Assembly: GCA_020740775.1 (NCBI GenBank)
Contig: JAHEWK010000025.1
Location: 1 to 64,000 of the forward strand
Reading direction: 5' to 3'
DNA from: Ilyonectria destructans
Taxonomy: Eukaryota > Ascomycota > Sordariomycetes > Hypocreales > Nectriaceae
DNA: 64,000 bases
A program made the position numbers and the translations under genes. The first letter of the stretch is position 1. Every line of letters begins with the position of its first letter. Under the pieces are notes generated by a model that worked only from the letters and a program-made list of their open reading frames with translations, was not told the DNA's origin and searched no databases. Shown piece after piece: positions 49,487-64,000 of the stretch.

Positions 49487-50349
49487 GATGGTTGCGTTAT
49501 GATTGAGTGAAGTTGATGAGGCCTAATGTGATGTCTGCGATCGCGATCGCAAAGGCGGGGAAAATCGGATAATTACGGAGGCCTATAGGGCACACTGTTG
49601 CAAAACTCCCTGTCAGCTGTCTTTAGTGCCCATCCCCCACTATTAGGCCAGAAATGACCCCACACCTTACTAATCCAGATACTTCAGCATAAGTAGTAAG
49701 CAGGTACTGCGGACCAGCTGCGGGCCCGCGCGATTCGTATCCGTCCAACCTGCTGTTTGAATGCTACGAAGTGGCAACGTGCTCCAGTGATGTTGTAGAA
49801 CCTCGATCTACACAATACGGTCCAAGCTATTTAGTTCTTTCCAAGCAATCACTAGCGAACTATAAGGCATTGTAATCAACCTGATTTTCATTTGCTATGG
49901 TTGTAAGTCGAAATGGCCGCTGTGCCGGATGTAAACTCCCGGTACTTATCCAGCCTTCAAAGTGGCCTCAACCTCCAAATTTGACGGCGCTGTGGACGTG
50001 TATATGCCAGCGTCCCTTTCACAATAGCCTCAAATTTTCATTCAGAGACTCAAATTGCGATCCCCATTTGAGCTGGTATTTTTTTTGCTCAAGGATTCTT
50101 CACACCAGGTGTCAACCGCCTATGTATGAGCACACAGCTTGGTAAGCCAGCAGCGGCTCAGCGCAGTGTTCCCGAGTCGGGTCAGCAGAGGACTAGCGTG
50201 GCGATCTCACGCTCAAGAGAGTCTAGTGATCACCATTCATCGTAGCAAAGGGCAACATTGTTATGTTTTGTAAACAATAAAATCTCGTTCCCAATGTCAA
50301 CTTGTTTCATTCTTTGCTTCTCTTGGCCCAAGGTCTCTCCTTAAACAGA

Positions 50350-51823
50350 ATGGAACCCCTAGACATTCCCCCTGAGTATGTCTACTGCGTCAAAGCCGGG
50401 AAGAAACATCATGATCTCTTTACCACGATATACGCTGGCGAAAACTATTGTGGCCGTTGCGGTTTAGCCAACCCCTTTCAATCCCAAGGTCGGGCCAGGT
50501 CCAGAACTCCAGCCCTTCCGGGCCCCTATGATGAGGTGGTTGAGGTCGAAGACTCTCCGCCACAGCCAGCCAGTCCAGCAAGTCAGCTTATGCGTGACAG
50601 ACCAAAACCAGTATCGTCTTCCGGTATTGGGTACGCGCAACTACTGCCCAACACGGTGCCTGTCTCCAATGGAGTGACTGCGAATACACGGGCACGCCTA
50701 TATCCCTCTAAGCCGGCAAGCGATACTCCCTATCCGCAATTCATGGCGGTCGCATCGGCGGCCAGTCAGGCCATTCAAAACACCAAAGGCAGCACCAGAA
50801 AGCCTAAGCGGCAGCGCACTGGCTACCAATGGGTTCACATCAGTCTCCTGCTCGTGAGCTTGGAGACCAGGTACTTCAATGGCCTTGCGATAGAGGTCCC
50901 AGAGACGGTGCTGCCTCTAAAGGATACAGTGATCAAGTTTAGCGCGGCCGACCTCCTTACCTGGCCTTCATTCACTCGGGTCTTATTTGAGCACCTGCGT
51001 CCACTCCCAAGCACCATCGATCCAACCAACAAAGAGCTTTGGAACCTTTCTTACGCTTCGTCCTTTTCTGGCAAGAAAATCGTTACCGTTCCCAACACCG
51101 ATAAGTACACGACGCCGTCAAGCATGCTCGCTTCTGGACACTTTTCGAACAACCAATCTGGGCAGGTAAAGGTGCTCGTTGTCCTGACATCGACCGATGT
51201 CGTTGACAAGCAGGAGCCAATCACCCCGCTGAGGTCAGACGAGTACTTAACGCCTGTCAGGAAAGACAAAAAAAGGAAGGTCAAACAGGAGGACTCAAGC
51301 CCAGAGCTGAAGAAGCGTATCAAGCAAGAGAGGCAGATCAAGAAAGAGAAGGGTGTAAAGAATGGGAGACAAGTCAAGCAGGAAAACGCAGTTCCAGCTT
51401 CCTCCTACTCGAACCCGGCGGTTGATGAGGGCAGCACAATCGTCGACAACATTGTTGTGCAGGTGGATGCAGCAGATCTGAGCGATCTGGAGGATCCCGT
51501 TGACGATCTAGTTTTCGACAGCGTCTCCGACGTGGAAGGGGATGAGCGTGAGGCAGACCAAGGCCCCGAGATCGAACGTGGGAATGACGCAGGTTTTTTA
51601 ACAGAGTTCGTAAGAATCCCGGCCAAATTTTCACCCAGAGAAATACTGACCTCAGAAGATAAACCTGCAGTCGGCAGTCACACCAGAATCTATCGAACAA
51701 GCTCCAACACAACAATTTGAGGATAATGCCGTCGAAGGAATCCCCCCGGCCCACTCAACACGTTTTAGGGGCACGAAGATCCCCATGACCTTTGCCTCTC
51801 GACCTAGAAAGAGGAGAGATTGA
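50350..51823 (+). CDS. gene A of copy 1: zinc-motif, SUMO-consensus-rich accessory protein
   Basis: Exons 50350-51609 and 51656-51823 (46-nt intron GTAAGA...CTCAG) give 475 residues. The start is the ATG at 50350 (MEPLDIPPEYVYC). The N-terminus has C13-x7-H21-x12-C34-x2-C37-G, the same spacing as gene A of copy 2. Residues about 165-295 form an ordered domain (WVHISLLLVSLETRYF...VLFEHLRPLPSTID). Then comes a Lys/Glu-rich tail with VKQEDS, IKQERQ and VKQENA, all fitting the SUMO-site pattern (hydrophobic-K-x-E), acidic stretches and a basic end. It looks nuclear. Function unknown; probably a transposition partner. It ends 9 bp from the end of gene B. Confidence 0.82.
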
Positions 51824-51832
51824 CTATTCAAG

Positions 51833-53555
51833 CTACCCATCAGAGGTGCCAGCGTCCTCCTCGTCATCACTTATTCCCTCAATGTCATTTCCATTTTCGT
51901 CTTCAACGCCAAGTTCAACAAGCGGCTGTTCTGCTGGTTCCAGATCTGCAAGCTCCTCTTGATGGGCTTGATTTGCTCGTGCAAGTAGTGCTTCCTATAC
52001 ATAGTTAACTGGATACTTTAATGCGCAGATAGACATAGCATCTTACATATTCGGCAACTCCCCCGGTCGGTGCTCTACGGTAGGCTAGCGTAGGACGTTG
52101 TCCACTCTCTATGTGCCGAATGATCCTGTCGCGAAGGGCAAGGTAGAAGCGCTTCAATGGGCGCAACTTGTCAGGCTCCTGGTGATCGCCGAGGACTACA
52201 TTATGGTAATCCATTTCGTTAAGAACGTCGCGGCACCATTCCTTTGTCTCTGGCTCAAGACATGTGCTGATGTCGATGCCAGCCAGTGGCTGTGCCAGCT
52301 CGCCTAGAACTGTACGGTCGATGGGGATTCCCCAATTGCAAGCCTTGCTTGGGTCAGGGTAATGGTAATTCATCCAAGGTTGGCCCTGCACAACATGAGA
52401 CCGGTTCTTCTGAAGGCGAATTTTGTGTAGATTCCACGCCTCTACGAAATCGAAGAGCTCTTGACGCAGCACATCTTCGAAGACAGCGTAGATAGCAATC
52501 TGGTCCTCGAGCATATCGCCGTCAAAGTCCCCATCTCTGGCAAGCTCCCCAAAGTAGTCCACCCACTGCCGTGAAGAGACGTGAAGCATGCTCTCCCACC
52601 ACTTCTCGATCTTGACGTTCTTCGTACTCGGTGCCGCCTTGTAGGAATCCTTCATCCGCTTGCCCTGCTGGAAGACTTGGCCATTCCATTCCACGCGCCC
52701 ACCAGCAGCTAAGGCAAAGTTCCAATGGGCTGCTGCGACCAGTGGCGTTTCGCTACCCCGGTCTGCCTGCAAGTACCATGGGCGCAAGCCATAAGCGTCG
52801 CATGCAGCCAAATACTGCTTCAACACACTCAAGGCGGTGCTGGCTGAGTGGCCAAGGTAGAATCAGACAATATTGCGGGAGTATGCATCAATCGCGGCGT
52901 ATATCTCGAAACCGTATGCCTTCAGCTTGTCATGGCCGTCAATGCACCACTGGTAGTTCGGCCCCGGGACGAGGAACTGCCCTTTCTTCCTTCGCATCAT
53001 CCTTCGGCGCATCTCGACATCGTTTGGGAACATGACTTTGTACATTTCAAACAGGGGATCCCTGGGTACCCAAAGCTGCTGTTGTTGGCGTAGATATGAC
53101 TGGAGAAACCTTCGACCGTATCCTGCAATGGCATTAGATCGTTGAGCCATCTCGACAATAACTTGCTCTGTCTTCTCCAACAAAGCAAGGCGTTCCTCGT
53201 CGCTGTTTATGCGACGTAGCCAGCGACGGTCCCGGTGGAGTCTGATGCGTTTCAAACCTCTTTTAGTGATAGGCCAGCCTTGCCTCTGAAGAACACTCAA
53301 GGTCTGCTTCTCGGTAAGGCCAACACGGAAGATAAGTTCGTGAATAGCTTCCATGAGCTCTGGAGTCTCAATAGTGCGTGATTGTTGACGCGGAAGTCCC
53401 CAGCTGGCCACCCGCCGCGAGATTGTGCTAAGGTTGACAGCGACATTGTAATGTTTCCGCAGCTTATATCTGATCTGGCTTCGCGAGACGCCATTGAGGT
53501 ACAGCAAGCTGACATAGTCGCGATATTGATCGATTGGGTTGGGTGGCCGAGCCAT
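51833..53555 (-). pseudogene. gene B of copy 1: integrase-like DDE transposase, one stop
   Basis: Exons 53555-52047 and 51994-51833 (52-nt intron GTAAGA...GTATAG) give about 556 codons from MARPPNPIDQYRDYV. Two HTH-like regions are followed by the retroviral-integrase-type core: YQWCIDGHDKLKAYGFEIYA (first D), WYLQADRGSETP (second D) and NVKIEKWWESM (catalytic E). The C-terminus is acidic. A TGA at 52863-52865 follows DAYSRNIV where copy 2 has a Trp two residues on; TGG to TGA is likely. Apart from that codon the frame is open. The start at 53555 is preferred to an ATG at 53585. Confidence 0.85.
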
Positions 53556-53910
53556 GACAATAGGTAGGGATGAGAACCAAGGCAAGGACGAGGTCGTGGT
53601 GTTTAATGCAAGGGGATTTGTGGCTGGAACCCCTATTTGAGCAACGCGATCGGCGCGGACCGTCGCGCTTTTGCTGCTGCCTCGCTGCGGACTAGATCAA
53701 CTAGTGGGATGGCGGACACCACTCATTAGGAATAGCTTGGACGCGGATCAATTCAAGAACGCCTCAAGTGGCCTATTGATAAATGAGTTTTCCGCTCTGT
53801 TCTCATTATCGTCACCAAGGAAACGAATTGGGCTCTTCTAACTGTCACCAAGGTGCTTTTAATCAGAAGCGTAGTGCAACATAACTGTGCGCCGTCGACT
53901 TACATTAGTC

Positions 53911-54727
53911 ATGGCAAACGTAGACGCTGTACGCGCGTCTGGTGGACCGCAGTCCAACAGCGACAAAATTGTCAACAATAAGGGAAGAGTCCAGTCCAGC
54001 ACCCGCAAATCCGCGAGCAAGATCACCGTACGGTCCACCCGGCTACTCTGCACATGGTATCGTTACTGATTACATTTGTTTGGGTAGAAGAAGAGGGCAC
54101 AAAAGAAGAAGGCACCTCCGATCGGCTCGGCGCGTGACTTCCCCTGCCGCCCCTGTGTTACCCGCGCTACCAAGAACCCTGGGCATGAGTGTGCCTCTCA
54201 GGATAGTAAGTGGCTATTCTGTCGTAGAAGCTTTTCCAGGGTAACTTATACGGACAGATACTGGTGCTGCCTGCTGGGACTGCGCAAAGAACGGTCACAC
54301 GTGTCGGCCAGTGAGTAAACAATACCGACTCTCTACAAATCAGATGCTAATCAGTTGCTATCAAAGGTCCCCGCTGGTGCCGTCTCTGCTGTGCGTGCCT
54401 TCTGGGAATTGAACCGGCTGATCGACGATGTAAATAAGGATCCCGACGATGCCTGGCACTCTGCAGCACAGCGCGCAGCACAGCAACTACGCGCTTGCGG
54501 TGCTGCTGACCGGTGTCCTGCTGCCGCTCTAGCTCATTCTCCCGCCTTGGCTCGCCTTGGTGAATCAGCCGAGCCGACACTCGAGGAGCGGAAGGTTGCG
54601 GCGCTGGAGGCCATCGCTGAGGCTGCTCGTCTCTGGACTGTAAGTTTACTGAGTCGGTATTTAGCAGCTCAATAAGCCGAACGAGGAAGGTACAGAAGTG
54701 GGAGAGGAATCGGATAAGGAATACTAG
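53911..54727 (+). CDS. gene C of copy 1: six-cysteine (DUF3716-like) protein
   Basis: Five exons fit: 53911-54027, 54088-54205, 54258-54310, 54367-54639 and 54677-54727, all GT-AG and in phase, 203 residues. The last intron is only 37 nt, so the end is less certain. A basic N-terminal region (KKRAQKKKAPP) precedes C-x2-C-x11-C and, after an intron, C-x2-C-x6-C (FPCRPCVTRATKNPGHEC; CWDCAKNGHTC). A helical region (VRAFWELNRLIDDVNKD; LEERKVAALEAIAEAARLW) and an acidic end follow. The pattern resembles fungal DUF3716 proteins and gene C of copy 2. Probably zinc-binding; role unknown. Confidence 0.72.
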
Positions 54728-55172
54728 GCGTTGATATCATCCAACAAAATAGAGCTGTTAAGGGGTTTATTTGAAGTGGAATGTTTTGGTCGAACATTAG
54801 TGAGACTTCTAAGCGCTGATCCGCAGCGGCCACGCTGTAGTTCGTTCTGTTGACCGTTTGGGCATGAATTCAACAGAATTGAGTACGGAAGTACATGGCT
54901 CAATGTACTGTGGGGCAAAAGCCTTGATCTTGTGGACCCCATTTTGCGTGTTCAGGCGTGCTTTTGGGGTTTTGCAACAGTGACCTCTATAGGCTGCCAT
55001 AAAGGGGTGGGCACTTGAGCTCGGCACAGTGTTCCCGTTAACTCTTTTGGACGAGCCATTCAAAACCTGGCCGCGGCATTGATTAGGGAAATTTAGTCAT
55101 TTTGCGGGATAAGTAATCACAGCGAAGATGAATCAATCAAGCACAGTATCCTCAGCCTCGCTACATTCGGTA

Positions 55173-55772
55173 CAGTGTGGCTAACAGACCGACCGACCCA
55201 GACCGGCCCCTTCGGTCTGTCGGTCTGGGTTTGTCGAGGCTCCCGGTCTGTCGGTCTGCGTCTGTCTGGGTTAGCAACCTGGTCGGTCTAGGTCTGAGTA
55301 GCTGATGCCCTCATTGGCTACCCTTGCCACGCCCCACTTAATTTGGCACTGCGAACTCACTCCCGCAAAAAGAGTGGGGGTGGTGCAGGTGCGTTAAGGC
55401 TGAGTCGGCCAATGGGAGCCCTGGAAACCCCTAACCCAGACTGACTCAGACCACCCAATCCGACCGGCAGCTCCGGTCGGTCGGTCTGATGACAATTGCC
55501 GGTCGGTCGGTCTGTGTCACATATCAGCCCTGCCCCACTACAGCAGCTGCCTACCAGGCAGCTGCTACTGCCTAAACAGGCAATGTTTTCATTTGTGTAT
55601 AAAGAGCTGCACGACTCAGTGCATCTTGTCATTGAGTTCTGGCTCCTTAGATAATTCTCATCAATTCACTGGTGCCATCAATGATCCCTGTGGAGCCAAT
55701 TGTCTGACAGTCTGCGGTCTGAAGATGGTCTGTCAGACGGTCTGTCAGACGGTCGGTCTGTTAGCCACACTG
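55173..55772. mobile_element. hAT-type MITE, second copy, carrying a solo LTR
   Basis: The ends are CAGTGTGGCTAACAGACC and its inverse. A perfect 8-bp target duplication ATTCGGTA flanks it (55165-55172 and 55773-55780). Without the 195-bp LTR and its 5-bp duplication it is about 400 bp and aligns in reverse to 24536-24885 over most of its length. Confidence 0.93.
55515..55709. repeat. solo LTR (family B) nested in the MITE
   Basis: TGTCACATATCAGCC...CCAATTGTCTGACA, 195 bp, with duplication GTCTG at 55510-55514 and 55710-55714. The sister MITE at 24536-24885 preserves the empty site, which proves the insertion. A diverged relative is at about 63523. Confidence 0.92.
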
Positions 55773-56292
55773 ATTCGGTATGTAGAGAGTTCCCGCGGCT
55801 GCCGGAGCGTGACCGCTTAATCCGCGTTCTGGTTCGGGAGGTTCGACGGCAAGATGGAATAGATGGCGAGCCAGTCAACCCAAGCCAAATTGATGGCCAG
55901 GATCGTTCAATATACGCCGAAGTGGTAAAGACGGGAGGGAACACACGTTGGAGAAGAAAGCGGACCACTCCGCTCTATTATCTTGCCACAACGAAGGTAG
56001 GTCCCCTAGCCCGCCTCCTTTGCTGTGGTCAAGCTATAGCAATATGTTAGTCAGTCCTCGCCTCATTCGCGACATCTTTCTCCCAGCCATAATGCTGGCT
56101 TGCCACGGTTGGCCAGAGCCCGGCTCTACCCTTCCTCCCGGCTCTTCGTCGCAAGCGTCTCTCACATCGCCGAGAGGCGCGGCTCACAGACCCTTTCGGC
56201 TAGGACACCGCGCTCTTGAACTCAAACCGGCCGCCATATCCGTAATCTTCTTCCCCACTAGCCGCCCTCCATGCGCAAACATGTCTAGATGC

Positions 56293-57297
56293 TCACCATC
56301 CCCCCGTGTTCCACGAGCCCATCGGATGGTTCATCTCAAACCAGGTTTCGCGAGGTGATGGTGAACGCCGGAGCTGTTGTTCTTCCTCTTGTCGACGTCT
56401 GTCTCTTTCCAGGTCAGAGCGGATACCCACAAACTTGAACATTTGATGTGCGGGTGCGGCCTGAGCTTTTTCCGGGCAGACCAGCTTTCGACTGGCCGTC
56501 ATTGTCAAATAATCATCACTGATGAACTGGAAGAGGAGCTCGTGATCTTCATCCAAACTCTTCAAAGGATACGAGGCTTGGCTTGCTTGTGTTGGAGGAC
56601 AGAATGGGGCAAAATCGCAGCCGCAGTTGGCATTGAAGTATAAATGCCCCTGAATTTCGGTGTGGTTATCGGATGGGTTTGTGTCTTCGGAACGGGGATC
56701 TTCTTCGTGTAGAGTGTAGAATTCGACATATTTTGTAGGATATAATTCGGGAAATTCGGGATTGTAGCAATGATCCACATGGTCGGCGGAGAATAGATGG
56801 AACGTCTTGCCAGCGATAGGGTCAAGAGGGCGACAACCTCTGAACTCAGCTTGTCGCAGAAACCCATAAGCTGCTTGTACCTCTTCCTCCCTATTGCTCT
56901 CGAGCTCTCGTCGACGTTGTTTCTCTGTTCGTTCGCGCTCTTTCGTATCCCGTAGTTCCCGCTTCCTCTCTTCGCGTTCGTCCCTCAGTTCGTAGTAGAA
57001 ACCTGCATCAGATCCGTTATATGACCTCTCAGACAAGGTATCTGCTCCGTCGGGATGTAGCTGACACTCGCATTCTGAGTCGTCGTCGTCGCATTCGCAA
57101 TTGGCGTTGATCATATTACTGCCCCGCTCACTGTTTTCATCCGCTTCAAGGTCTGAGAGATCTTCATCGAAGTCTTCCGGATATACGACTCGGTCCTCTT
57201 TGATGGTGAGGACGACTAAGCGGTAGTACCATGCAGGGAGCTCCCGTCTTGGGCAGACGGAACGCTGATCGGGCGACTGAGTCCGCTGCCGCTTCAT
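56293..57297 (-). CDS. conserved-looking acidic/coiled-coil host protein, function unknown
   Basis: A single frame of about 334 residues. The start is taken at ATG 57297 (MKRQRTQSPDQRS); 57315 is possible. It opens with a basic segment and RRELPAWYYRLVVLTIKED, then an Asp/Glu-rich and Cys-containing stretch (NANCECDDDDSECECQLH). A long charged coiled coil follows (LRDEREERKRELRDTKERERTE), then a folded-looking part (GKTFHLFSADHVDHCYNPEFPELYP, then EIQGHLYFNANCGCDFAPF), and it ends RSPSPRETWFEMNHPMGSW. No enzyme motif is seen. The ordered ends and lack of stops argue for a real host gene. It lies between the two three-gene transposons. Confidence 0.75.
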   Translation of the reverse strand: MKRQRTQSPDQRSVCPRRELPAWYYRLVVLTIKEDRVVYPEDFDEDLSDLEADENSERGSNMINANCECDDDDSECECQLHPDGADTLSERSYNGSDAGFYYELRDEREERKRELRDTKERERTEKQRRRELESNREEEVQAAYGFLRQAEFRGCRPLDPIAGKTFHLFSADHVDHCYNPEFPELYPTKYVEFYTLHEEDPRSEDTNPSDNHTEIQGHLYFNANCGCDFAPFCPPTQASQASYPLKSLDEDHELLFQFISDDYLTMTASRKLVCPEKAQAAPAHQMFKFVGIRSDLERDRRRQEEEQQLRRSPSPRETWFEMNHPMGSWNTGGW

Positions 57298-57558
57298 GCC
57301 TGGAGTAGGACACAATGTTGATCAGAGGTTTGCACCAGGAAATCAGAACAGTCGGGAATTTCGAGGAATCAAGGAGCTGTCTGGTTAGTGCCATTTGGGT
57401 ATCCCTCTACGGGTCTGTGCAATTGTTGGCGCGAGGGGCGAGGACCACAGGCACAGATCTCGCCCACAGTGGTACCAGTAAAGCTTTTTGCACAGGCGAA
57501 GGCGCGGAAATACAGTTCTGCCGCTCCCGAAGTTTGGGTCAAGAAGGTCGCTGGGGTA

Positions 57559-57597
57559 CGGAAGGCTATATCCAGGACTGGGTCAAAACCCATTTTC
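57559..57597 (+). repeat. copy 2 terminal inverted repeat, left
   Basis: Pairs with 62877-62915 with one mismatch. Shares the core ACTG-nnn-CAAAAC-C/T-C with the ends of copy 1. Confidence 0.88.
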
Positions 57598-57832
57598 CAT
57601 CGATTTTAGTCAATACAGGGACCCTACCCCATACCCCATGTCGCCCACCCCACCTCGGTATATGGATTAATTCATATCGAAATATACCATACTACGTATT
57701 GAAAATACAAAATGATGTGCGCGAACGGCCCGGGCATGGACGGCCACGTTTGCCCCCGTTTGCTCCCGGACAGCATCGTCCGCGCACATTTATGTTTCCA
57801 TCGCAATACACTAAATCTATTATCCTTTCGTT

Positions 57833-59032
57833 ATGCCTCCAATACTCGTGTACTGCCCAGCACGGGTCCGTACTCAACATGCCACGATCTTACGGGATAA
57901 CCCTTCTTGGGTCTCCTGTCCGCATTGTGGTAGCCCCCTAGCCGATAAGCCCTCCGACGATGCCTCTGACGATGACCTTGAAGAGGTAGACTTCCAGAGC
58001 CTACCCGATCGGACCCGAAAGGCCTTTTCAGCGACTGAACGCCCCCAGCCAGTACTGTACGCCTCAAACGCCGAGTCGCAAGCGGCACTTACTCATCGAG
58101 CCGGCGCAACCAATTTCTCATCTGCTCTTCGAGAGGCGGATAAAGCCCGTCAGGCCAGTATTCGGAACGATAAAACTAAGGCCGAACGGAGCAGTACGGA
58201 GCTTATACAGCCCCGTAAGATCGGAATATCGTTGTACTTGTACGCTGGGAATTACTGTACGGCCGAGTCTGGTGGTATCGAGACCCTTGAGTGGTTTGAT
58301 GTCATGGCCGTACATAGGTTTCCGATGGCCGTACAGTTCAATACGGCCCTGGAAGCAGATACACACCAGCAGTTAATGTCCGCCCTTATCAAACGGTTCT
58401 TTTCTAACTCAGGGGAATGGGCAAAACTAGCTGAACGGGAGTGGACGGCTATTCCTATCGATGGGAAGGCAGCAAGCCTAAACTTGAACGTTCGGTTCTG
58501 TGAGGCAGCGTACGAGTCCACTCAGCTCTGGACATTCCTGCTGCAGACGGGACTTCTGCCTCGGTCGGAAATCCGCCTACACCTACGTACCGGCGTCTCT
58601 GCCAACCAACCAGAACAGGACAGAAAGGTCAGTACGAAGGGTAAAAGGACCGTACTGGCCCATCCACAAGGACGCAAGCGCGATACGCCCGAGTCACGTA
58701 CCAGTATTACAGTCAAGACCGAGAAACGCTCCACTTCGACAGCTAAACGAATCAAGACGGAACCGAGCGGGCCAGTACGGAAGAAGGATAAAAAGGCGTC
58801 TGGTAAGGCCGAGGCTAGCGAGTCTGCCCAGCAGGAGCTAGCTAAAGCAGAGGTGGACATACCCGTTCAGGAGATAATAGTTGCGGATGAGCCTGTTCGG
58901 TATGGATCTGAAGGAGGTAACGAGGATTGCAAAGACCCCTTTGAGGATAGCCTCTTGCAGTCCGACCCCTTCGTGGTATTTAAAGGTACACGTTCGTACG
59001 CGAAGGCTTCTGAACGGGCATCTTTAGAGTAA
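57833..59032 (+). CDS. gene A of copy 2: zinc-motif, SUMO-consensus accessory protein
   Basis: A single exon, 399 residues, starting MPPILVYC. The N-terminal C8-x7-H16-x12-C29-x2-C32-G spacing equals gene A of copy 1. An acidic segment follows (DDASDDDLEEVDF). The central domain, about residues 125-260, begins KIGISLYLYAGNYC and contains FSNSGEWAKLAEREW and LWTFLLQTGLLP. The C-terminal third is Lys/Ser-rich with VKTEK and IKTEPSG, matching the SUMO-site consensus, and basic runs suited to nuclear import. No catalytic motif is seen. By position and conservation it is a transposition partner of gene B, for example a DNA- or transposase-binding factor (inference). Confidence 0.85.
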   Translation: MPPILVYCPARVRTQHATILRDNPSWVSCPHCGSPLADKPSDDASDDDLEEVDFQSLPDRTRKAFSATERPQPVLYASNAESQAALTHRAGATNFSSALREADKARQASIRNDKTKAERSSTELIQPRKIGISLYLYAGNYCTAESGGIETLEWFDVMAVHRFPMAVQFNTALEADTHQQLMSALIKRFFSNSGEWAKLAEREWTAIPIDGKAASLNLNVRFCEAAYESTQLWTFLLQTGLLPRSEIRLHLRTGVSANQPEQDRKVSTKGKRTVLAHPQGRKRDTPESRTSITVKTEKRSTSTAKRIKTEPSGPVRKKDKKASGKAEASESAQQELAKAEVDIPVQEIIVADEPVRYGSEGGNEDCKDPFEDSLLQSDPFVVFKGTRSYAKASERASLE

Positions 59033-59038
59033 AAGTTC

Positions 59039-60706
59039 CTACTCTATAGCCAGCCCCGTTTCTGAATTTACATCCCATTCGTTCTCGGAACCGTCCGTTC
59101 TCCCGCGTACATGCCCGTCCAGATCAAATCCTCGCATCCTTAATGTATCCTCTAAGTGTTGGATACCTCCGGTTGGCGGCTCCTGGAGCTGTAATTGAGG
59201 GTCGACTCCGGATTTGTGGTGGTCTTCAAGTTTTCCCCGTAGGTAAACGTATGAGCGATAAAATGGGATCTTGATACCGTTTACACGGCGCTGTTCGCTC
59301 CCTTCCCTGGCTGAACAGCTAAGTACGGACTTGCAAAGCCCTAATACCTCGGTAGAGAGATACGACGATAGATCGAATGATCTGTGACCAAGAAGCTCCT
59401 CCATCTCCTCTAGTACGGCCGGGATGATTGGTTCCCTATAATCCTGCGTACGGGACTGTTCAGGGTGGTGATAGAGGACGTATGGGACCCCAGGAATAAC
59501 GTGAGGTCGGTTGGATTGTTTGCGGATGTAATGATTATTCCATACCCGTACGAAGCCGCGCAGGTCCGTATCTAAAGGTTCCATATATATATAGAGTAGG
59601 GCAATCTGGTCGTAGATTTTGCTTGGTTCGAAAAGCCCGATTGTATGTAGGGTGCCAAAGACAGTCTACACATATTAGTACGGGGGCGTTTAGGGACGCC
59701 CGGAGGCGCTTAAGAGTGTCCTTACCCGCCAAAACTGCGAACGGCCTTTACAAAGACGATTCCACCAGCTCTCGATCTTAACATTATGGATGCTCTTGCC
59801 GTATACAAAACAGTCCTGAAACTGAATTGGTACGGCCTCGCCCGTAAGTGGTTGTACCCGTTCGCGCCCAGTCTGACTCGAGTGGTACCAATGGAGGCCA
59901 GCAACAACCGGAGTTTCTTTCCCACGATCAGCTCGTATAATCCGAGGCGTAAAGCCAAGTTCGCGAACGACCGCGAGGTATTGGAGCCCAACGCCGATGG
60001 ACGTATGCGTACTAAAGCCGACAAAAAACCAAGGGATATATCTCGAGTAGGCGTCGATCCCAGCGTAGATCTCAAAGCCGTACGGCCTTAATTTATCGTA
60101 CGCATCGATAGACCAGATGAAATTTGGCCCAGGGCAGGTCCAGCCCGTACGGCGCCGTCTAAACTCGTCCCGCCGGTCCCGGAAGCTCCGTTCGTGGACC
60201 TCTTTGTAGGCAGAGTAGAGGACATCTCGGCTTATAGACAATCCTTGTTGGCGCAGCTCTGTTCGGAGGTATTCCCGCCCGTACCCTGCCAAACGGCTCG
60301 TTGGGTCGACTGCTTGGGCGATATGAGTAATGGCTTGTTCTCGTAAGGTAATATTTTCCTCTCGAGTATGCCGCTTGCGAAGGTCCATCTCTTGACGTAG
60401 CCGTACGAAGCCGGTTAGGGTAATAGAAAACCCCTCGGAATGTAGTACCTGGAGTAAGCGCTCGTCCGTAAGGTAGTGTTCGAAGAAGTGGAAGCGTAAA
60501 CGGTCCCGGAGGGCATCGGTCACATCCGTACGGCCCTCGCGTTGGAAGCCCCAAAGTCGAAGGAAGCGCTTTAGGGTAGATACGGAAACAGAGACGTCTA
60601 GGTCCGTCCGGAGCCATTCGCACAAGGCCTTATCCGTCCAGCGTAACTGCCATTTCTCGTAGATTTGATGTTGGTAAGGCTCAAGATTGATCCTAGCTCG
60701 GGGCAT
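59039..60706 (-). CDS. gene B of copy 2: integrase-like DDE transposase, intact
   Basis: Exons 60706-59726 and 59665-59039 (60-nt intron GTAAGG...GTGTAG) give 535 residues. The N-terminus (MPRARINLEPYQHQIYEKW) and SVSVSTLKRFLRLWGF look like HTH modules. The catalytic core of retroviral-integrase (rve) fold shows FIWSIDAYDKLRPYGFEIYAG (first D, about residue 200), RIIRADRGKETPVV (second D) and HNVKIESWWNRLC (E). The D-KL-x-x-YGF and N-x-K-I-E-x-WW motifs recur in uncharacterised integrase-core proteins of fungi and animals. It would cut the element ends and join them at TA. Not Tc1, pogo or hAT by these motifs. Confidence 0.88.
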
Positions 60707-60719
60707 ATTATCGTTGCGT

Positions 60720-60775
60720 TCGGGGGCGTTAGCATGCGTTCGGGGGTGTTACGAGGCGTTCGGGAGCGTTCGGGG
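60720..60775. repeat. GCGTTCGGGGGCGTT-type direct repeats before gene B
   Basis: About four near-tandem units of GCGTTCGGG(G/A)G(C/T)GTT lie just upstream of the gene B start. They could be transposase- or regulator-binding sites. Confidence 0.6.
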
Positions 60776-61166
60776 GTGTAAAAGATATTTCGATGGATAT
60801 ACAGTCGGATGTTAAGACATGTACGAGGAAGAGAAAAGAAGACAGCGCAAGGTCCATTTCTGACCCGTACGGGGGAGAGCCCGCCCGCCGGACTATCTCA
60901 AATACCGAAAGACCAAAACGGTTATGAACAGGAGCTCACCCTCCCGAACAGGCCCGTTCGTCATCCCCCCCACCCAAAAAAAAACCCCGAAAATCTCTGT
61001 CTGAAAAGCAAATGGCGCCGTACGGTGCTCACCCATCCGAACGCACCCGTACAGACAAGAACGGGAAGCCAAAAAAACCTTGCCGAAAACGTGATACCGA
61101 CCGCCCTGTGCGAAGCCAAACGGGGCCGTTCGCGGGTATAGTATCCTGAACGCCAACGGAAATGAC

Positions 61167-62249
61167 CTACTCGGAACCAGAATCTAGAAAAAAGTTAGAT
61201 ATCGTCCGGGAATGTACAGACCTGTGCGCGCCCGTACGGGGATGAGCGGGGATATACATACCAGACTCCTCAGACTCGTCGGCGACCTGGCTGAGGACGT
61301 CCGCGAGCGTACGGAGGTGCCTACGGGGGACGGAACGGATGGCGTCAAGAATGTCTTCGTCGTCGTCTAGGGCCGTACGCTTGCGGCTGCGACCGCCCGA
61401 GGCCTTACGGCTACGCTTCTTGCCCCTAGGCTTGGCATCTCCGTCCTTGACTAGAAAAGACATGAGAACGGGAGCGAACGGGAGAAAGCGGGGGAAAACG
61501 GGGGCAAACGGGGGCGTACGTACCATAGAGACTGCACCGCTTAGCGGCGGAGTTGTAGCGACAGTTCGCGCAGGAGCCGCTGATCTGAACGCAGCTTTCG
61601 AACGGTCCTAAACCCTTCCGGCAGGAAGCGCACGCATCCGTTCCGGACCGTAAGTTGCCGTACAGATGGTGGAAGGCCGCATCAGAATTAGCACCCCGCT
61701 TCAGATTGAGCGAACTGGAGATTTCGGCTCCGTCCACGCCCGGACGGGTACGGACGCCCATCTCACGCTTGATCTAAATGTGGACGTCAGCGTACAGGTC
61801 TAGACGAAGCCGTACGGCTACGAGCGGGAGCAAACAACAAACCCTGAAGTAGTTCTGGGCAAGGGCACGAACGGCGGCGGACACGTTCTTAGAGATATCT
61901 ATCGAACGGGTCAGAACGGGTGTAAACGGATAGAAACGGGCGTGAGCGGGAAAGTACGCTTGAGGACCCAAGCGGTCAAATGCTCGCCAACGGTCTCGTT
62001 CGGCTGCGGATCCTCAAGCTCTACGTTCGGGAGCCGATGGCCGCGAACGCGAGTGTCCGGGGGCGTCCAGCTAGGATGGTTGGGGGGAACCCAGGGCTCG
62101 AAGTCGTCCGCCTCCGAGAGGGCGTGTTCGCTAACGTCCGAGAGCGAATCGCTTCCGTCCGGGCCAGGAAGGGGGTTACCGGAACTGGGGCCGTTCGGGG
62201 CCGGAGCGGGACCGGACGCTCCCTTTCCGGAGCGAGTTCCCCGAGGCAT
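61167..62249 (-). CDS. gene C of copy 2: six-cysteine DUF3716-like protein, five exons
   Basis: Exons 62249-61958, 61898-61843, 61773-61524, 61450-61262 and 61183-61167 are all GT-AG and in phase, giving 267 residues from MPRGTRSGKGASG. The N-terminus is Pro/Gly/Ser-rich with an acidic patch (LSEADDFEPW). The middle carries C-x2-C-x8-C-x6-C-x2-C-x8-C (CASCRKGLGPFESC; CANCRYNSAAKRC), typical of fungal DUF3716. A basic block (RGKKRSRKASGGRSRKR) and an acidic, helical end (LADVLSQVADESEESD) follow. Introns are short and packed with CCCGTTC/CCCCGT words. Probably a nuclear zinc-binding protein; role unknown. Confidence 0.8.
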
Positions 62250-62876
62250 ATCGTTCAGGAGTATTCGGGAGCGTTCGGGCGCGTTCGGGAGTTGGGGCGT
62301 ACGGAATTGTACGAAAGTGGCTATCGACAAACCGGGGCTATACGCAAATGTTAGTATGTGTACGGAGCCGAACGAATGTGTGAAAAATAAAGAAAAAAAT
62401 ATGGGGAAGTTAAGGTGGGGGCCGGAAGGCCCCGTACGGGACCGTACGAGATCCGAATTTCTCAGGGAAGGTGGGGAAAAAAGGTTTTGGGGCAACTGCG
62501 GAAACTGCTGAAAAACGCCGGTAAGGCAAGAACCAGAACAAAGGCAGGGCAGGCGCCCAGGCACGTGACTGCCAGGCAGGGGAGCAAGCCAGCCGACCGG
62601 TTGCAATTGAGCGCCTGCACGGAAGCGATCGTGAGAACCCATTTCTGGACGGTTCGGAACGCGAAAAAGACGCTGCGTATTGACCTGATCGCTCCCGATC
62701 GGCCGGCGTATGTAACAAGGCGGTATTGTGATGGCGCGGGCTGGAAAACTGGGATATGAGAAAAGACCCATAAATCTTAGAGTTTCCAGCGATTTTATTG
62801 GCTACTACCAAATTGGGACTAGCGGATTGCATCTATCCAGTGGTGGTCCGAGCGCACGGCTGCCGTGGATCTATCC
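62250..62876. other. noncoding arm of copy 2 between gene C and the right end
   Basis: Carries the likely gene C promoter and GCGTTCGGG-type repeats near 62270-62300. Frames here have no motifs. Confidence 0.5.
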
Positions 62877-62915
62877 AAAAATGGGTTTTGACCCAGTCCT
62901 AGATATAGCCTTCCG
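62877..62915 (-). repeat. copy 2 terminal inverted repeat, right
   Basis: Inverted partner of 57559-57597; TA follows at 62916-62917. Confidence 0.88.
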
Positions 62916-62917
62916 TA

Positions 62918-64000
62918 GACTGGGGTCCCCCAGGGCTGGCATCTTTCTTCTGATCGTCCACACACTCGGATTCATCGCTGGTTCCCGGATCTGCGTCGTC
63001 CGCTTCGCTGGCCGCTCTGCCGCCTCTAGAAATGCATTTTCAACGACCGAAGCGTATCTTGGACCCATCTATTCGGCGTCATTCCACGCGTCTAAGGTAC
63101 ACTGGCGTTTTCGTGGTAAACTGGGCCGTTGGATGATCCTCTTCTGCGGTGGGGCGGAAGTCAAATCCTCCCGGACAATACGGGTCCGATTTGGTTGCGC
63201 CGGCGGCACTGGATGAAGTGTTCTCCGCGGCAAGTCGAATTATTCAGGCTCCGTCGTCCCCGTTGCGGAGCCGTGCCAACGTGCATTGCAGCCTTGATCA
63301 GGGCTGCAGCCCATCACTGCCGCCTGCGAATTCAGACCTCACTACATATGGACGGGATTGTGGACAACTGGCCATGGCCAAATTGTCCGCGTGCCGACTT
63401 GTTACGGGGCGTCCCTCGCGCCGCTGGATCGTCCTGTTACTGAGGAGCAGATGTGGCGGTGGATGTAGTCCAGAAGTGGGCAGGGCAGCGGGGTACCATT
63501 GGGAGCCACCCTTGTGTCCTTCTGTCAGACAATTGGGTCCACTGGGTCCACCTTTGGCATCAGTCAATTGATGAGAATTATCTTGAAGAGCTCGAGCTAG
63601 ATGCACGTTAGTGCGCAGCTCTTTGTACACAAAGAAGAGTCCTGCTTTGTGGTGCAGAATCCTTGGAAACGAGGCTGTTGGCGATGCCTGATACAGCCTG
63701 TGTTTGAGCTTTGACTTCAACGGGGGTCATAACCCCTGTCAGTTGACTTTTCGACCCTGGCCATCCCGTGTGGGCTCGGCTAAGATCCATGCCCTAAGGG
63801 GCACAGTCAAGGGGGTTGCCCGAGACAGCCACACAAGAGAGTAGGTATGCATCCTCATCTTCCACGACGCTCTCTATCACGCCTTTCGGGTGCCAGATCG
63901 AGAGCACCAGCTACCTGTTTTCTCGCGGCTTCCGATCGCGGGTATACGCCTCTGACAGATGGAATCTACGGACAAGTGCGGCAATGCCGTCTGCACAACG
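62918..64000. other. right flank; no clear gene
   Basis: The first 100 bp may continue the frame interrupted by copy 2 (see findings). The rest holds the LTR-B relative and no supported gene. Confidence 0.4.
63523..63650 (-). repeat. diverged relative of LTR family B
   Basis: TGTCAGACAATTGGG, then TTGATGAGAATTATCT and GCAGCTCTTTGTACAC match the inverted family B LTR of 55515-55709 in order and spacing. The far boundary is unclear (a TGTCA at 63737-63741 is one option) and no flanking duplication was found. Confidence 0.6.

Follow-up and report, generated by a model that had tools for sequence, protein, structure and literature searches.

Two transposons in the window

We analyzed a 64,000-nucleotide stretch of the fungus Ilyonectria destructans (assembly GCA_020740775.1, contig JAHEWK010000025.1, positions 1 to 64,000; hereafter, the window), which holds two transposons with long inverted ends, E1 and E2. 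E1 spans 49574-55001 (5428 bp), with gene A1 reading rightward, B1 leftward, and C1 rightward, and E2 spans 57557-62917 (5361 bp), with A2 rightward and both B2 and C2 leftward. We consider it very probable (roughly 0.9) that both are cut-and-paste DNA transposons of the IS3EU superfamily, with B as the transposase, A as its partner, and C as a lineage accessory. Their features are as follows; splice sites were predicted by eye, from the sequence alone.

49574..49609, plus strand: E1 left terminal inverted repeat, which starts TACGGAGGCCTATAGGGCACACTGTTGCAAAAC
50350..51720, plus strand: gene A1 of E1, 456 amino acids (aa), open single exon, with a CHCC zinc-like module and a basic tail bearing four psi-K-x-E sites
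52005..53555, minus strand: gene B1 of E1, IS3-like rve transposase with an in-frame stop; open reading frame (ORF) pieces 52863-53585 and 52005-52832
53911..54675, plus strand: gene C1 of E1, six-cysteine protein; predicted exons 53911-54027, 54088-54205, 54258-54310, and 54367-(54642 or 54675), the last end being uncertain
54966..55001, minus strand: E1 right terminal inverted repeat; the minus strand reads TATGGCAGCCTATAGAGGTCACTGTTGCAAAAC
57551..57556, no strand: CTGGGG left of E2, recurring at 62920-62925, two bases (GA) past the right end
57557..57596, plus strand: E2 left terminal inverted repeat, which starts TACGGAAGGCTATATCCAGGACTGGGTCAAAACCC
57833..59032, plus strand: gene A2 of E2, 399 aa, open single exon
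59039..60706, minus strand: gene B2 of E2, transposase, 535 aa; predicted exons 60706-59726 and 59665-59039
61167..62249, minus strand: gene C2 of E2, 293 aa, DUF3716; exons 62249-61958, 61898-61843, 61773-61524, and 61450-61167
62878..62917, minus strand: E2 right terminal inverted repeat

Inverted arms were detected at 49573-49609/54966-55002 in E1 (37 bp, 81% complementary) and at 57557-57596/62878-62917 in E2 (40 bp, 98% complementary), which bears out the two elements with inverted ends described in the initial annotation of this DNA. The bounds given there (49588-54987 and 57559-62915) had to be corrected to those above, as the former cut E1 within its repeat and the latter left off the terminal TA of E2.

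Termini and target duplications

The initial annotation had placed TA outside the ends, implying that it was duplicated. We found that the inverted repeat (TAYGG..CCRTA) itself begins with the flanking TA, which lies inside the repeat in the families examined. TACGG or TATGG starts six families (E1, E2, the 548-aa family, L051, C35, and L024), the left end being altered in two E1-family copies, and an inner motif like ACTG..CAAAAC is, by eye, common to several of the six. Target duplications were surveyed in 56 copies chosen from four families of the same genome, of which 11 had an end missing and 45 had both ends. Of these 45, 22 had an exact duplication of 6 bp beyond the TA, when about 0.01 would be expected by chance (by arithmetic): 11 of 20 copies in the 548-aa family, 8 of 11 in the E2 family (one a 1-kb derivative), 1 of 8 in the L051 family, and 2 of 6 in the E1 family (one a derivative). 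TA target duplication was thus rejected, together with the TA-duplicating families (Tc1/mariner-like, PHISTA, and ESTA), in which the duplicated TA lies outside the repeat.

Exact duplications were absent from both window copies. E1 is flanked by GATAAT and AAGGGG, and E2 by CTGGGG on the left and GA+CTGGGG on the right, possibly a 6-bp duplication plus two extra bases. The flanks were likewise inexact in the C26 copy of the L024 family (TCGTCC/CGTCCC), the C35 element (GGCTAG/GTAATA), and the C16 copy of the E1 derivative (GGTACC/GTTGAC).

Probable placement in the IS3EU superfamily

We place E1 and E2 in IS3EU because their termini and the 6-bp duplications fit the published description. In the part of PMC12730594 available to us, IS3EU elements of rust fungi have TAYGG..CCRTA termini, repeats longer than 30 bp, and 6-bp duplications, and the corresponding part of PMC10045372 gives TA..TA termini and usually 6-bp duplications for the superfamily. 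Repeats above 30 bp were found in E1, E2, and the L051 family (35 bp, 100%). According to the same portions of the two papers, the likeness extends to an IS3-like DDE transposase without HHCC, whereas the partner genes differ: an alpha-kinase and TET/JBP are described there, and here we find A (a zinc-like module and a sumoylation tail) and, in part, DUF3716.

The initial annotation could name no superfamily for these elements; the termini, the 6-bp duplications, and a best NCBIfam match to the IS3 family, albeit below the cut-off, point to IS3EU, into which a supposedly unnamed transposon is thereby moved. A new integrase-like superfamily with TA target duplications, as might be supposed from the TA bordering both elements and from a partner-gene set unfamiliar to the first annotator, is highly improbable, given that TA is part of the repeat in the families examined, that exact 6-bp duplications lie beyond it in 22 of 45 copies, and that the termini equal those printed for IS3EU in the passages seen.

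Ginger1 and Ginger2 have rve-type transposases. Their duplications of 4 to 5 bp disagree with the 6 bp found here, and both were rejected. As given in the accessible part of PMC10045372, duplications are 4 bp in Ginger1 and 4 to 5 bp in Ginger2, and Ginger1 carries an upstream HHCC domain, which was not seen in our elements. GingerRoot of Selaginella, placed in one lineage with IS3EU in that same part, resembles them in its 6-bp duplications and mostly TA..TA termini and differs in having a plant host. Styx of Zymoseptoria, known here by description only (PMC10853768, seen in part), is 7.9 kb long and has a further DUF3577 gene besides GATA and CCHC genes.

The transposase

B is of the rve type and matches Pfam rva_4 (E values of 3.2e-28 and 9e-23 in two open relatives), and in B2, an open frame of 535 aa with one predicted intron, the DDE site fits by motif at D201, D260, and E312. 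Its description as an rve-type D,D,E transposase therefore holds. The best NCBIfam model was the IS3 family for all four B sequences scanned (E values of 5.5e-8 to 4.4e-4, below the model's curated cut-off). Pfam scans, which took in the A, B, and C proteins and one neighboring ORF, returned no HHCC-type family upstream of the B core up to an E value of 1, only weak Clr5, helix-turn-helix (HTH), and a few chance-level matches. A sequence search of solved structures with B gave TnsB as the best match, which was not significant (E value of 0.019). Since B1 carries an in-frame stop, the window E1 is a broken copy; a copy 98.8% identical (L050) has an open B frame.

In a tree of 22 B proteins, with a midpoint root only, E2 and the other DUF3716-bearing families entered form one clade of eight rows (support, 98/96). 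The E1 transposase lies outside this clade, with the 548-aa family and relatives from Fusarium, Clonostachys, Xylariales, and Claviceps (91/93, under the mark of firm support and unrooted).

Besides, the B protein of locus L049 shares 93% identity with a protein of Fusarium solani and, across 68% of its length, 95% with one of Verticillium dahliae; because such identity is close for hosts so distant, horizontal transfer is possible, judging from sequence comparison.

Partner gene A

Both A1 and A2 have a C-x7-H-x12-C-x2-C-G module and a basic tail with sumoylation-consensus sites, as the initial annotation had stated. The motif H-x(11-14)-C-x2-C, which was itself derived from the A proteins, was present in 6 of 6 A N termini tested (one a fragment in a derivative) and, by eye, in a seventh. 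As controls, 14 of 2,051 shuffled ORFs and 4 of the 153 ORFs of the window had it, the latter probably including A1 and A2. A tails are usually rich in sumoylation motifs; enrichment was only marginal in the A2 tail (P = 0.048) and was not found in that of the C35 A (one site; P = 0.36). A low-confidence model of A1 hints at a ubiquitin-like (beta-grasp) core at residues ~158-282, suggesting, as far as such a model can, that the A1 core is ubiquitin-like. The predicted structure of A2 had a predicted local distance difference test (pLDDT) score of 31, and hhalign comparisons between A families were weak. The closest matches were Ilyonectria robusta proteins (95% for A1 and 98% for A2).

Linkage and selection

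The 121 B loci, the B groups, and the A and C lists were compiled by hand with fragments merged, and the groups were set by identity to queries, only some of their members being in the tree. Of the 121 B loci, 104 have an A no more than 6 kb away, and 105 of 128 merged A loci are near a B locus. The 17 B loci without an A match belong to the E2 sister group (8), the E1 family (4), and the 548-aa group (5); the A of the C35-type subgroup, within the E2 sister group, was not among the queries, although the C35 element does carry an A gene. In every family read, A adjoins B and is convergent with it.

DUF3716 follows another pattern: in one B group, 43 of 49 loci have it at a distance of 6 kb or less, and in the 548-aa group A is near 42 of the 47 B loci, DUF3716 near 1, and both near none. 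Thus, of the two accessory factors initially proposed, A, which is also under selection, stands, and DUF3716 is regular in one B group only; B occurring regularly without A and C, named at the outset as evidence against the proposal, was found in part, namely, in that 548-aa group. Each element has A, B, and a cysteine-rich C. E1 and E2 fall in different parts of the B tree, and their C genes could not be shown to be the same.

The ratio of nonsynonymous to synonymous substitution rates (dN/dS) was 0.25 to 0.33 for A, 0.11 to 0.23 for B exon 1, and 0.17 to 0.33 for C2 exon 3 (three pairs each), and 0.24 for the last exon of C1 (one pair). The A, B, and C sequences tested are under purifying selection.

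Gene C and DUF3716

C2 matches Pfam DUF3716 (PF12511) at 44.6 and 42.5 bits, against a cut-off of 22, with an E value of 6e-11 for the spliced model, and a homologue search with C2 gave two matches only, both from Ilyonectria. C1 gave no Pfam DUF3716 match up to an E value of 1, at filter settings that drop most weak matches. Hence, the six-cysteine, DUF3716-like protein first assigned to both elements is a cysteine-rich protein in each and DUF3716 in E2, C2 lying on the same strand as B and C1 on the opposite one. It is somewhat unlikely that C1 and C2 are a single ancestral gene, diverged and inverted in one lineage, with an ancestral three-gene plan. Both lie upstream of B and share six cysteines in the order C2C..C..C2C..C, but the missing Pfam match of C1, its opposite strand relative to B, the differing exon layouts, and the grouping of the E1 transposase with the 548-aa family, which is without DUF3716 (91/93, unrooted), speak against it.

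Among the 57 DUF3716-type matches listed for the genome (two loci listed twice), 50 have an IS3EU transposase match no more than 6 kb away. The seven others (C2:631705, C4:1035133, C3:98184, C74:1607983, C26:157158, C26:163348, and C38:142332) are possibly host genes or parts of other elements. An IS3EU element at C35:23351-28638 (L143, L029, and L142) has a pair of DUF3716 genes that flank B and A, one to either side. What is new here is the link with DUF3716, the transposon type itself being known, and a fungal domain of unknown function thereby gains a genomic setting. No printed link between DUF3716 and transposons was found in the literature searched, which took in no Repbase entries, nor did a literature search for Ilyonectria with IS3EU find anything; PF12511 is named, in the text available to us, in a passage on strain-specific Colletotrichum genes.

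Proposed roles of A, B, and C

From the ends and duplications, we infer that B would excise the element at its TA ends and join it to target strands 6 bp apart. A is probably the constant working partner in end or target binding and multimerization, in view of its linkage, its selection, its zinc-like module, and the hint of a fold. The zinc-like module would make contact with DNA of the ends or of the target, the core might form multimers or attach to B, and a sumoylated tail could tie A to host chromatin. C, as DUF3716, would be an accessory that a single lineage carries and could do without, perhaps as a further factor that binds DNA or counteracts silencing.

Alternatively, A and C might be IS3EU passenger cargo that aids survival of the element, for example by anti-silencing, outside the transposition machinery. 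This seems somewhat unlikely, even though rust IS3EU elements carry TET/JBP and alpha-kinase genes (according to the portions seen of the rust literature) and DUF3716 is near so few loci of the 548-aa group (1 of 47), since the position of A beside B and its convergent orientation are constant in each family read, an arrangement that speaks against A, though not against C, being cargo. For the partnership of A with B, we tentatively propose a fuller scheme, at somewhat less than even odds: fungal IS3EU elements are two-component, B needing A with its zinc module, ubiquitin-like multimerizing core, and sumoylated tail; one clade gained DUF3716 (once doubled, at both element ends) as transposition or anti-silencing factors; and DUF3716 is largely transposon borne. 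In any case, a second gene is tied to the transposase across diverged families.

Activity, decay, and derivatives

A stretch of 3981 bp is identical between two E2-family loci, which is counted as a sign of recent activity. Four other pairs differ mainly by C-to-T and G-to-A changes, most of them in a CA or CG context (in the clearest pair, 351 versus 5 others), whereas a control pair of open copies had no bias (132 versus 127 reverse changes, plus 100 transversions). Among the E2-family copies concerned (L023, L021, L022, and L019, on contigs C33, C47, C19, and C16), some bear a load such as repeat-induced point mutation (RIP) makes and may be called RIP-like, while two others are identical to each other.

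Three kinds of derivative were found. The 1-kb E2 derivative has GGCGTG on both sides. In the E1 derivative, a deletion removes some of B together with the beginning of C1, and A is open; this derivative occurs at two loci, with GGTTAT on both sides of one. A 1616-bp nonautonomous element (L146, C31:54701-56316) has 50-bp repeats and TCATTG on both sides, and nothing but the beginnings of A and C remains in it; L146 was the one place read among 11 that scored equally or almost equally in the A search. Derivatives that lack a complete B appear to be mobilized in trans, since they carry duplications, and copies that have A but have lost B by deletion, or that retain just the beginnings of A and C, would have moved in this way. 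With identical copies, RIP-like copies, and trans-moved derivatives in one genome, this is a good system for testing which genes are needed.

Surroundings and flank exchange

Further inverted arms (77 to 84%) lie around E2 at 55592-55710 and 63522-63633 of the window, so that E2 sits as if inside an older element. The right flank of E2 (400 bases) is single copy, matching only itself in the genome, and no empty site is therefore available for E2.

Flank 6-mers were compared in 47 rows compiled by hand from copies and the window sequence. Among the 25 without an exact duplication, five flank 6-mers are shared between copies, when 0.3 would be expected. Three copies of the 548-aa family (C15:53776, C18:137783, and C30:325830) form a closed cycle of swapped flanks, and two L051-family copies (C16:888424 and C38:51875) have swapped theirs, a pattern that recombination between copies, or assembly misjoins, would leave.
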